From Artemia franciscana (Eukaryota; Arthropoda; Branchiopoda; Anostraca; Artemiidae), in the NCBI RefSeq assembly GCF_032884065.1, contig NC_088866.1:46749346-46813345 (forward strand): 64,000 nucleotides of DNA, written 5' to 3'. The notes under the pieces are model-generated. The model was not told the DNA's origin, searched no databases, and saw only the letters and a list, made by a program, of their open reading frames with translations. Below are positions 359 through 54,659 of the stretch, one piece after another; the stretch's first letter is position 1; each line of letters starts with the position of its first letter. A program made the translations under genes and the position numbers.

Positions 359-2262
359 TCAAACAGTTCGTGGTAACGAACTGTAGAAAGGAGCGACCCG
401 GCTCAATAGTAACCGAAACTCTAAAAAATGGAATTTTGATACCAATAGTTACATCAAAAGTTTCGAATTTTTACGCTGATTCTATATATATATATATATA
501 TATATATATATATATATATATATATATATATATATATATATATATATATATATATATATATATATATATATATATATATATATATATATATATATATATA
601 TATATATATATATATATATATATATATATATATATATATATATGTATATATATATATATATATATATATATATATATATATGTATATATATATATATATA
701 TATATATATATATATATATATATATATATATATATATATATATATATATATATATATATATATATATATATATATATATTCATTAAGTTTGGTTTTACCC
801 ATCAAAAGTTACGAGCCTGAGAAAATTTGCCTTATTTTAGAAAATAGGGGGAAACATCCCTAAAAGTCAAGAAATCTTAATGAAAATTACACCATCAGAT
901 TCAGCATATCAGAGAACCCTACTTTGTCCCAGAAGACAGATCACGGATGCGTTTTTTTTGGGGGGGTAGTATTGACCCAGTGGTCCTAGAATGTCGCAAG
1001 AGGGCTCATTCTAAGGGGAATTAAAAGTTCTAGTGCCCTTTTTAAGTGACCCAAAAATTTGTAGGGTACCTAGGCCCCCTCCCACGCTCATTTTTCCCAA
1101 AGTCAGTGAATTAAAATTTTGGGCTAGGTATTTTGTTCAGTATAATCGAAAAACCTAATAATTATGTCTTTCGGGACGACTTAATCCCTCACACTCCCCT
1201 GGGGAAGGGCTGCAAGTTAAAAACTTTGACCATTGTTCACATATAGTAATGGTTATTGGGACGTGTAACAACGTTTTCAGAGGGACTTTTTCACGTTAAA
1301 GGGGGTCGGGGGGAGGAGGTTACGTGTGAGGATCTTTCCATGGAGTAATTTATCACGAGGGGAGAAAATTTCCATGAAGAGACGCAGGATTACCTAGCAT
1401 TATTAAAAAAAACAATGAAAAAGTAAATAAAAAAAAGTTTTTTTCAGGTAGAAGTAAGGAGCAGCATTAGAACCAAAACAGAAATTATTACGTATATAAG
1501 GGGGTTTTTCTCATCCACAATACCTTAATCTTTCCGCTAAAGTATTTTTAGTAATTTCAACTATTTATTCGACGGCCTTTGTGATTCAGGGGTTTAAAGA
1601 ATTGGGACCAAATTGATGCTTTAGTGTAAAGAGCTAGGTATTGACGAGGGGGAAGACCCCTCATATACGTAACAAAAATATACGAATATAGGATTTTGTC
1701 ACGTAAGTTAATTCGTAAGTTACGTATATTTATTACAAACAAAAACGTTCGTAAAAAAATAAAAATTTCTAGTTGCCTTTTTAAGTAACCAAAAACTGGA
1801 TTACAACTAGGCCTCCTCCCTTGACTCCTTTTTTATTAGAATCGTCCGATCAAAACTGTGAGAAAGCCATTTAGCCAAAAAAATAATATGCAAATTTCAT
1901 TTTAATTATTTATGTGCGGCAAGCCAAAATAAAAACATGTATTAATTAAAAAACGTTCAGATATTAAATATATAAAAAAAACAAGTTTTGTAACTGCAAG
2001 TAAGGAACGACATTAAAACTTAAACGAACAGAAGTAATTCCATATATGAAAGGGGTTGTCCCCTCCTCAAGGCCTCGCTCTTTACGCTAAGATTTTTCAT
2101 TGTTGTAAATAGTAGAGTTGTAAGAAAGAGTCAAAGTTTATTAAAAAGAACGAGGCGTTGAGGAGAGGACAACCCCTTTCATATACGGAATAATTTCTGT
2201 TCGTTTTAAGTATTAATGTCACTCCTTACTTGCAGTTAAAAAACTTGCTTTTATATATTTAA
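359..2262 (+). repeat. PER repeat, copy A (complete)
   Basis: Full-length member of the dominant repeat of the window. It begins TCAAACAG and continues into the short palindrome CAGTTCGTGGTAACGAACTG (8 bp arms, GGTA loop). It ends in a long fold-back (about 1975-2262) whose arms carry the CTCGCTCTTTACGCTAAG-type core and its complement. A second inverted pair with the same core lies at about 1500-1640. The copy is lengthened by a 298 bp (TA)n tract at 482-779, placed where other copies read AAATATATAAG. I see no conserved coding frame shared by copies, so it looks non-autonomous. The short end hairpin and absence of target duplication recall Helitrons, but no CTRR end is present. Class unassigned. 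Confidence 0.85.
482..779. repeat. (TA)n microsatellite inside PER copy A
   Basis: 298 bp of TA with two G interruptions. It replaces a short TA seed found at the same place in the other copies of the repeat, so it is best explained as expansion in place rather than insertion. Confidence 0.95.
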
Positions 2263-2625
2263 CACTGGTTGAAACGGCAGTAAATGAATTATAAAGAGTA
2301 CTGAAGACCCTAATCGACAATTTTTTTTCTGCAGTAAAAAAAATGTTTTTTGAAAAGTGTTGTAATTGAAACGTAACGTCATCGAGTCGTAAAGATGCTC
2401 TTTGAAAGCCTTGGGTAAATAAGAATTTAGTCTTTCGTGTTTGTAACCAAATTTTTTATATAAGTCAATGCATAATAAGAAAAGGTGAATAATCTGATTA
2501 TAAAGGTAAGGTAAAGGCAACGTAAATCTTCATTAACACAATAGTTATAAAAAAAATTCTACTTTAGCTAACAGAGAGCAGAGCTCGATGTGTTAGTCTT
2601 ATATGTTGAACATAAAGGTAAAATA

Positions 2626-52338: not shown

Positions 52339-53016
52339 GAATATAATTATGAAAAATATGTTTTTGAAGAATAGGTAATAGCTTCGTTGTGTTGACACGA
52401 TAGGAGAGTTACGTACAAGACTTGCAGACAAAAGCTGGGCCAGACTCTTTGAGTGTGAGGATTTTTTGACTTTGTTCTTCCCTTTGTAGAGTTTTCTTTC
52501 GTTGCTTTTCTATCCTGCTTGTTTCTTTCTCTTTTTTCAAAATTTTACATCTTGTTTTTTTTTTCTTTTTCAGCTCTATCTGCTCGTCTTTCCTTTTGTC
52601 TGAATTCCGTCCCTTGCCGTTTTCGTTCCTCTTCTATCCTGTCCGTTTCTTTTTTCTTTTTGACGAAATTCCACATCCTGGTATTTCTTTTCTATTTTTC
52701 AGCTCTATCGGCATGTCTTTTCTTTTTTCTGTATTCAGTCTCTTAATGTTTTTGTTCCTTTGCTTGTCTATCTGTTTGTCTTCCTTTTTCTCGGAATTGT
52801 ATATCCTAGCGTTCCTTCATTTATCGGTTCTATCCTCTTGTTTTTTCTTTTCTCGGAAATGAATATCCTAAAGTTCTTTTTTTTTCGTCTCTTTCTTCTT
52901 GACTTTTCTTTTCCCTCAATTCTGTCTTCACGTTTTCTTTCCTTTCCTTGTCTATCTGTTTTTCTCTCTCTCTCCTTCTCTGAAGTCAATGCATTCACGT
53001 TTTGATACTTTGTTTA
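52339..53016 (-). pseudogene. Fragment encoding a Lys/Glu/Arg-rich repeat protein, copy 2
   Basis: Near-identical to 50127-50792. On the minus strand it starts MNALTSEKERERKTDRQGKE, continues through charged repeats with interruptions, and ends near the SGPAFVCKSCT block, then RNSPIVSTQRSYY. Possible relic of an element-encoded N-terminal domain. Confidence 0.5.
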
Positions 53017-54659
53017 TGAAATAAAAAAAAAAGTTTTTTTTTTCTAACTGAAGGAGCGACATTAAAACTTAAAACGAACAGAAATTACTCCGTATATGAA
53101 AGGGGCTGTTCTCTCCTCAACACCCCCCTCTGGAACTTCGGCTCTTTTTCTCAACTCTACTTTTTAAAACAATAAAAAAACTTAAGCTTAAAGAGCGGGG
53201 CTTTGAAGAGAGAACAGCCTGTTTCATATACGGAGTAATTTCTGTTCGTTTTAAGTTTTAATGTCGTTCCTTACTTTCAGTTAAATAAAAATGTTTTTTT
53301 TTGTTAATTTCTGAACATTTTTGAATTAATGCATGTTTTGATTTTGGCTCTACGCACATGAATAATTAAAATGAGATTTGCATATTAAATTATTTTTTTG
53401 GCTAAATGGCTTTCTCATAGTTTCGATTGGACGATTTTGAGAAAAAAGGAGCGGGGGAGTAGGCCAGGCTACCCTCCAATTTTTTGGTTACTTGAAAAGG
53501 CAACTAGAACTTTCAATTTTACAAACCTTTTTATTAGTAAAAATATACCTAACTTCCGAATTAACTTACTTAACGAACTTCTAAATCCGTATGTTTTTAT
53601 TACCTATATGAGGGGGTCTGCCCCCCATGTCAATACCACGCTCTTTACACTAAAGCTTAAATTTTGTCCCAATTCCTTAAGAACGACCCCTGAATCACAA
53701 AGGCCATAGATTAAATAGTTGAAATTAATGAGATTACTTTAGCGTAAAGAGCAAGGTATTAGGAGGAGGTGAACTCCTCATATGCATAATAATTTCTGTT
53801 CGATTTAAGTTTTAATGCTGCTCCCTACTTTCAGTTGAAGAAACTTTCATATTATTTTTTAATTGCTCTTAAAAAAATGCTAAACAATCCTGCGCTCCCT
53901 TCATGGAAATTCTCTTCCCCAATGACAAACTACTCCATGTACAGTTCCCCCCGCATAACTCCCTCCCCTCAACCCTCCCGAACCGAAAAATATCCCTGAA
54001 AGTGTCTGTACACTTCCCAATAACCATTACTATGTGTTAACACCGGCCAAGGTTTGTAACTTGCAGCCCCTCCCATGTGGACTGTGGGGGATTAAGTCGT
54101 CCCCAAAGACATACTTATTAGGTTTTTCAACTATGCTGAATAAAATGACAATCTCAGAATTTTGATCCGGTGACTTTGGGAAAAAATGAGCGTGGGAGGG
54201 GGCCTGGGTGCCCTCCGTCTTTTTTGGTCACTCAAAAAGGGCATTAGAGCTTTTAGTTTCCGTTAGAATGAGTCCTCTTGTGATATTCTAGTACCACTGG
54301 GTCGATATGATCACCCATGGGAAAAAACAAACAAAAAATAAACAGGCATCCGTGATCTGTCTTGTGGCAAAACATACAAAATTCCACATTTTTATACATA
54401 GGAGCTTGAAACTTCTGCTGTAGGGTTCTCTGATACGCTGAATCTGATGATGTGATTTTAGTTAATATTCTATGACTCTTAAGGGGTGTTTCCCCCTATT
54501 TTCTAAAGTAAGGCATATTTTCTCAGGTTCGTAACTTCTGATGGGTAAAACTAAACTTGATGAAACTCATATATTCAAAATCAGCATTAAAATTCAGTTC
54601 TTTTGATGTAACTATTGGTATCAAAATTCTGTAACAGTTCGTTACCAAGAACTGTTTGA
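53017..54659 (-). repeat. PER repeat, copy I (near complete)
   Basis: The fold-back at 53017-53300 is partly decayed; the internal hairpin is at about 53600-53790; the end palindrome at about 54634-54654 has one change, with a deletion of about 40 bp just inside it. Occupies the same target as copy H within the duplicated segment. Confidence 0.87.

Follow-up and report, generated by a model that had tools for sequence, protein, structure and literature searches.

Concerted change between the arms of a 5′ hairpin in a Helentron-like transposon family of Artemia franciscana

A stretch of 64,000 nucleotides (nt) of the Artemia franciscana genome (GCF_032884065.1, contig NC_088866.1, positions 46,749,346 to 46,813,345 of the forward strand; the whole stretch is referred to below as the window) contains copies of a transposon family whose full-length members, of ~1.75 kb, begin with a hairpin at the 5′ end (H1, with arms of ~130 bp and a loop of ~37 nt), continue through a spacer, a second, imperfect hairpin (H2) and a core, and have a palindrome at the 3′ end. 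As computed here across genomic copies, the two arms of H1 change in concert and those of H2 do not; arms drift after insertion, arm asymmetry is inherited, and the H1 loop is inverted in at least two unrelated groups. We consider it probable that one arm of H1 is sporadically copied to the other in active lineages, at times inverting the loop.

The evidence for concerted change comes from 89 scored places in the genome, chosen by an exact spacer sequence that is absent from copy C of the window. The reference copy G is represented twice among them (from the window and as L001), as is the hairpin of place L012, read once from each of two bodies. A full H1 is present at 64 of the 89 places, and removal of two identical entries left 62 rows (61 distinct hairpins, with L012 present twice in opposite orientation), which were used for arm distances, counts of symmetric change, the mix of transitions and transversions, and the arm tree. 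Mean distance within a copy is 0.104, with 0.147 between left arms, 0.141 between right arms and 0.144 between left and right arms, and the arm tree requires 45 changes of side against 41.7 for shuffled labels, so a side signal is absent. Departures from the family consensus comprise 221 symmetric cells, 397 in the left arm only, 364 in the right arm only and 41 in which both arms differ from the consensus in different ways; when whole right arms are re-dealt among copies, the symmetric count averages 77.3 and reaches at most 111 in 500 shuffles. Several stem columns have two or three common symmetric alleles and few mixed cells (column 96, for example, is T/T in 23 rows, C/C in 33, A/A in 1 and mixed in 5). 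The same is seen genome-wide at the stem site CTC(A/C)TCAAC, where 6657 hairpins are A/A, 5989 are C/C and 472 (254 + 218) are mixed, against about 6540 mixed hairpins expected by arithmetic if the arms were independent.

H2 serves as an internal control, since it is related to H1 in sequence and lies in the same copies, with an arm identity of about 71%. It is readable in 46 copies, 35 of which also have a full H1. Distances within a copy (0.287) are those of left against right arms in general (0.290), and exceed those between left arms (0.152) or between right arms (0.195); none of the 92 arms lies nearest to its own partner, in none of the 46 copies are the two arms sisters, and the arm tree clusters by side, with a single side change against 31.2 for shuffled labels. 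In the 35 copies with both hairpins, symmetric cells number 102 in H1, where 28.2 are expected (maximum 46), and 7 in H2, where 6.3 are expected. Kinship of copies therefore does not explain the H1 pattern, and chance and common ancestry are ruled out by the shuffles and the control from H2 together with the pair counts across the genome.

The copies of the family in the window, and the parts of copy G referred to below, are as follows.

Copy A, 358 to 2262, minus strand: H1 at ~1966-2262, a two-piece hairpin, 90% paired; 3′ palindrome 358-383.
Copy B, 2623 to 4309, minus strand: H1 arms 4016-4140 and 4178-4302 (94%); 3′ palindrome 2623-2648.
Copy C, 13653 to 15411, plus strand: H1 arms 13661-13783 and 13821-13943 (95%); 3′ palindrome 15386-15411; loop orientation opposite to that in G.
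Copy D, 43576 to 45041, plus strand: H1 arms 43575-43708 and 43746-43879 (81%); body with an internal deletion.
Copy F, 45975 to 47729, plus strand: H1 arms 45975-46106 and 46144-46275 (95%); 3′ palindrome 47704-47729; loop orientation opposite to that in G.
Copy G, the reference, 48401 to 50127, plus strand: H1 arms 48401-48532 and 48570-48701 (98%) with a 37-nt loop; 3′ palindrome 50102-50127.
H2 of copy G, 48988 to 49183, plus strand: imperfect hairpin with arms 48988-49045 and 49128-49183; the internal control, not homogenised.
Repeat AGTAAGGAGCGAC in copy G, 48435 to 48447, plus strand: 13 bp; found inverted at 50088-50100 (by the 3′ palindrome) and 48655-48667 (H1 right arm).
Copy H, 50793 to 51371, plus strand: truncated at the 3′ end; H1 arms 50800-50926 and 50964-51090 (93%).
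Copy I, 53016 to 54660, plus strand: H1 arms 53023-53131 and 53192-53300 (83%).
Truncated copy, 60913 to 62422, minus strand: ends in a single H1 arm.
Copy cut by the end of the window, 63038 to 64000, minus strand.

Copies I and H are alike by eye in their left flanks, so that I is apparently a segmental duplicate and not an independent insertion. In copy C part of H2 (14372-14449) is a short palindrome, 97% paired with an 8-nt loop, and the matching part of F (~46700-46780) has decayed; this palindrome of the C/F subfamily looks like a template-switch inverted duplication that replaced the old arm.

A first-pass annotation of the window had described the arms as near-perfect complements in each copy, with paired differences between copies. 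The complementarity is as described in G, F, C, B and H, and is looser in D and I and, in its two pieces, in A. The arm sequences quoted are all present (F within 46075-46170, G at 48495-48606, C at 13751-13853 and H at 50890-51000), although the pair from F contains one mismatch (CTCCTTACGC against CTCCTTGCGC). The paired differences are real, and the test for excess paired substitutions that the annotation proposed gives the excess over shuffles reported above. Its expectation that arms would cluster by copy rather than by side is borne out in the lack of clustering by side, so that left arms did not group with left arms in H1, but the two arms of a copy are sisters in only 16 of 62 copies, and only 27 of 124 arms lie nearest to their own partner, the arms of older copies having diverged by drift. 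Pairing due merely to a recent common ancestor, which the annotation had named as the outcome that would undo its interpretation, does not account for copies whose H2 lacks any excess. The inverted loop of C and F, and the presence of a second, related hairpin in each full element, had gone unnoticed.

The element ends read ATTAAATAAA... and ...AACTGTTTG(A/T). The 3′ palindrome, CAGTTCGTTACCACGAACTG, is followed by TTTG and stops about 4-6 nt short of the element end; the 26-base 3′ end has 8 matches in the window with up to 3 mismatches and 0 in shuffles. The 13-bp repeat AGTAAGGAGCGAC is subterminal at the 5′ end, ~33 nt inside the element, with its inverted copy beside the 3′ palindrome. 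A 32-base spacer sequence matches the 1.27-Gb genome (6468 contigs) 12510 + 12479 times with up to 3 mismatches, the control giving 0. Elements also occur fused head to tail, as with rolling-circle transposition in general, with the junction of CACGAACTGTTTG and ATTAAATAAAA found 499 + 503 times genome-wide at up to 2 mismatches (control 0) and further fusions recognised by eye in the flanks of places L035, L077, L029 and L022. Left flanks are T-rich at -12 to -5 (80 flanks, not all independent), the TT dinucleotide itself not being seen, and at two empty sites compared by eye (G with window position 52339, D with 48090-48140) a target duplication is not clear in either. Copies C, F and G contain no stop-to-stop frame of at least 120 amino acids (aa), and a search of Rfam gave nothing at gathering thresholds. 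Helitron Rep domains are abundant in the genome (150 of 7436 candidates were scored, and 150 of 150 lie above the Pfam cut-off). Judged by layout, the family would be a non-autonomous, rolling-circle-like transposon of Helentron type, with a much enlarged 5′ inverted repeat.

Three observations on the hairpins may be recorded separately. At the CpG columns 42, 106 and 107 of H1, one-sided changes number 10, 10 and 13 in the left arm and 2, 6 and 4 in the right (62 rows). In L098, columns 95, 97 and 102 suggest that the right arm comes from another subfamily than the left, possibly through exchange between elements inside the hairpin. The tip motif CGCTCTTTACRCTAAAG, beside the loops, is common to the arm consensus of H1 and H2 and has very low symmetric variation; it may be a binding site or a structural requirement.

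Symmetric states are nested on a tree of element bodies (51 bodies of 1.1-1.75 kb), indicating that symmetric changes accumulated in the lineages that produced new copies. Arms of individual copies then diverge: within-copy arm difference spans 0.8% to 28.5% in the 62 rows, and mismatch grows with terminal branch length (Spearman 0.54, slope 1.27; a slope no greater than 2 would follow from drift at the same rate in both arms) in 40 copies that include the apparent segmental duplicates L057 and L058. These two, alike in their flanks, retain about 12% arm mismatch. In 34 copies of the G clade, singletons per site are 0.0111 in the left arm, 0.0155 in the right arm and 0.0141 in the spacer, and private changes are one-sided in 57 cases and symmetric in 6.

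Asymmetry itself can be inherited. A state with G in the left and A in the right arm at column 85 occurs genome-wide in 21 exact copies on 16 contigs, against 3522 symmetric ones; 10 of the 21 are also among the family matches listed, and all 10 are oriented with G on the left arm. Similarly, the mixed hairpins listed at the CTC(A/C)TCAAC site include, by eye, about 20 with one near-identical core, spread over several chromosomes among the matches listed, and 6 with another. Half-changed hairpins have thus been multiplied through many insertions, which argues that arm copying is not obligatory at each transposition. At a site neighbouring column 85 the outgroups L010 and L067 are G/G, L018 is T/G and L008 is A/G, and L011, L045, L006 and the four copies nearest G are A/A. 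L008 lies on the outgroup side of a 97% split in the body tree and is possibly a captured intermediate between G/G and A/A; L088 and L098, both absent from the body tree, are also A/G.

The loop provides a record of a different kind. In copies C and F it is the reverse complement of that in G, and among the 89 scored places 80 are G-like, 6 inverted and 3 unclear. Inverted loops are rare in this sample though common genome-wide because the spacer sequence used for sampling is absent from copy C; with spacer-anchored patterns of equal anchor length, 5973 inverted and 4811 G-like hairpins are found in the genome. On the body tree four of the six inverted copies group together in a single clade; L072 joins them by spacer distance and L075 stands apart. 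The hairpin of L075 directly follows the 3′ end of another element, and its loop is therefore a true flip rather than a hairpin shared head to head. By eye, 4 of 100 inverted hairpins listed have arms other than C-type, and of 60 readable G-like hairpins 31 carry a C-type loop, 22 of these belonging to one sub-subfamily (among the matches listed). Loop orientation is thus mostly inherited and follows the sub-subfamily, not being 50:50 in each, with more than one independent flip. A random flip-flop of the parvovirus kind, raised by the inverted loops of C and F, was rejected since orientation follows subfamily.

Head-to-head arrangements require separate treatment, as a hairpin shared by such a pair necessarily appears to have an inverted loop from one side. 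Exact anchors reveal 46 places at which two outward-facing bodies lie one H1 apart. L012 (1545-1847), which is included, has a single H1 with a body on each side, and the two bodies belong to different clades of the body tree and are 81% identical, where random copies average 86% (5-95% range 79-94%). Being no closer than random copies, they do not look like a snap-back dimer, and a better fit is that two elements recombined through their palindromic H1. None of the four inverted loops in arms other than C-type is among the 46 places.

How might the arms be kept alike? In the account we favour, a change in one arm of the 5′ end hairpin would now and then be copied to the other, in lineages that produce copies, by template switching or gene conversion within the hairpin, most plausibly when it is extruded or single-stranded during replication or transposition. 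Such copying would be sporadic rather than one event per transposition, so that half-changed hairpins are also propagated, and copying or exchange that runs through the loop would invert it. A copy that has landed would mostly drift, its arms diverging with age. High arm identity would sustain the process, and H2, at about 71%, would have dropped out. The mechanism of copying (a template switch, gene conversion or mismatch repair of the hairpin), its timing in the cycle and the identity threshold are inferred; a pairing constraint is a possible helper to arm copying.

Several points weigh against this account. Kinship of copies inflates the raw counts, and the H2 control answers this only in part, as H2 arms are shorter than those of H1 and, at 11 of 56 columns, the consensus of the left arms is already unlike that of the right. 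For private symmetric changes in the G clade, 6 are observed where arithmetic gives an expectation of about 0.07; these may derive from unsampled source lineages or from rare conversion in resident copies. Copies of the G-clade sample were retrieved for their likeness to G, which over-represents the rare asymmetric left-G subfamily, so we draw no rate from it and use it only as proof that asymmetry is heritable; repeated resolution at column 85, which looked strong in this sample, was dropped for that reason in view of the genome-wide counts. Outside the C-type subfamily, a number of loops scored as inverted could belong to head-to-head pairs with one hairpin in common. Weak selection for pairing may act together with conversion, and no intermediate DNA form has been seen.

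Selection for pairing was the alternative offered by the first-pass annotation. Under it, mismatched hairpins would transpose less well and only copies with compensating second mutations would spread. Long H1 pairing is indeed kept in the subfamilies seen, and columns 112-130, which adjoin the loop, have only 3 symmetric states despite 89 one-sided cells, a scarcity of symmetric variation that may reflect constraint. However, the 47 distinct symmetric states would demand many independent double hits, and they divide into 29 transitions and 18 transversions, the same mix as in asymmetric departures (344 to 204), so that symmetric pairs seem not to be reached mainly via G-T wobble steps. Asymmetric subfamilies have, moreover, spread. 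As the sole cause, selection is disfavoured and appears unlikely, although it may accompany conversion.

It is similarly doubtful, though worth stating, that the 5′ hairpin takes an active part in transposition as a component of its intermediate. Here H1 would fold on single-stranded rolling-circle DNA and, in a fraction of cycles, self-prime or be nicked and self-repaired, arm copying and loop flipping being by-products. If true, this would place a terminal-hairpin step in a chromosomal rolling-circle transposon.

Continuing gene conversion between the arms of all resident copies, independent of transposition, seems improbable. It would accommodate the private symmetric changes, which are above chance, and also the scattered inverted loops in arms other than C-type, unless these are head-to-head pairs. 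Yet old copies differ by up to 28.5% between arms, singletons accumulate in the arms at a rate like that of the spacer and are mostly one-sided, and the apparent segmental duplicates L057 and L058 have kept their mismatch.

Obligate snap-back, in which a whole arm is remade from the other at every transposition as in rolling-hairpin replication, is more improbable still. It draws on the near-symmetry of the copies closest to G (of the 12 nearest rows, two of which are the same place, 11 have an arm difference of 0.8-2.3% and the remaining one, L084, of 5.5%), on inverted loops in some lineages and on the 46 places with outward-facing bodies one H1 apart. Against it stand the multiplied asymmetric subfamilies (the left-G/right-A copies and the mixed hairpins with one core), a loop orientation that follows the sub-subfamily instead of being 50:50 in each, and the bodies of the one readable head-to-head pair, L012. 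The re-copying of arms during transposition suggested by the first-pass annotation thus stands as copying between arms and fails as a rule for each transposition, as both asymmetry and, for the most part, loop orientation are inherited. The absence of any process, with all copies derived recently from a handful of sources whose hairpins paired perfectly, might be suggested by the small number of mutations separating copies near G. It can be set aside almost entirely, since the sources are themselves separated by many symmetric changes, one upon another on the tree, and the H2 control and genome-wide pair table refute it. An assembly or polishing artefact, also rejected, could equalise arms at a single place but would not produce one and the same symmetric variant thousands of times over, and is contradicted by old copies with up to 28.5% arm mismatch.

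The window contains other repeats and mobile elements. An open frame of 598 aa at 17174-18970 (plus strand) has a DDE_1 transposase domain and is presumably pogo/Tigger-like. A remnant at 39764-43474 (minus strand), with a PIF1 helicase domain and DUF6570, is probably a decayed autonomous Helitron. The fragment at 45041-45974 by eye resembles what we take to be a Penelope-like reverse transcriptase/GIY-YIG element. Long inverted repeats lie at 24090-24590 (196-nt arms, 86%) and 32371-32701 (82-nt arms, 84%), and a 130-bp unit is repeated in tandem at 55681-56558, in 6.8 copies with 97% matches.

Concerted evolution of a transposon hairpin is here a real and well-controlled case, for which Galileo and quasi-palindrome correction are precedents. 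In Galileo, a Foldback-like element of Drosophila in the P superfamily, arms are >99% identical within a copy and differ by ~7% between copies 1 and 2 (Table 2 of PMC2775673). Long inverted arms, a middle segment found in both orientations and expected stem-loops are shared with the present family, but Galileo moves by cut and paste with 7-bp target duplications, and each of its arms forms one end of the element (PMC2775673). Here, in contrast to Galileo and Foldback, both arms of the long inverted repeat belong to the 5′ end, a short palindrome marks the opposite end, and no clear target duplication is seen by eye at the two empty sites. Hints of homogenisation are also given for Tetris repeats (PMC4079207). 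Imperfect inverted repeats (quasi-palindromes) in yeast and Escherichia coli gain arm identity, which is attributed to template switching (PMC3820800, PMC7202029); those are mutation assays, whereas the present case involves ~130-bp arms in thousands of transposon copies.

The closest layout is that of the non-autonomous Helentrons DINE-1 and HINE, which likewise have no coding capacity, subterminal inverted repeats of about 13 bp and a palindrome near the 3′ end; their targets are T-rich, as those of the present family may be, and in DINE-1 too an inverted repeat starts in the 5′ subterminal repeat (PMC4067079). The 5′ inverted repeat is short in these elements and ~130 bp per arm here, and the 5′ subterminal repeat lies ~33 nt from the end compared with 2-4 nt in mite elements (PMC4067079). 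The ends of canonical Helitrons (5′ TC, 3′ CTRR, insertion between A and T) differ from those of our family, which lacks TC...CTRR termini. Parvoviruses replicate by a rolling hairpin, with a terminal hairpin whose loop occurs in flip and flop orientations. The terminal hairpin and two loop orientations are alike in both systems, although here orientation is inherited over many copies and is not random in each cycle. Among the titles and openings of abstracts covered, none describes concerted hairpins in a Helitron-like element, and such a report may exist elsewhere. The family may also give concrete structure to part of the Helitron share of the Artemia genome (8.81% as reported in PMC11492255), if it is counted there. 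With a homogenising and a non-homogenising hairpin in one element, a loop in which past flips are recorded and a spacer matched about 25,000 times in the genome, it amounts to a natural experiment on inverted-repeat identity, which could yield rates and tract lengths of arm-to-arm copying and tell whether copying is tied to transposition. Compared with these precedents, what is new is the setting in the 5′ hairpin of a Helentron-like element, the genome-scale counts, the built-in control and the loop flips.

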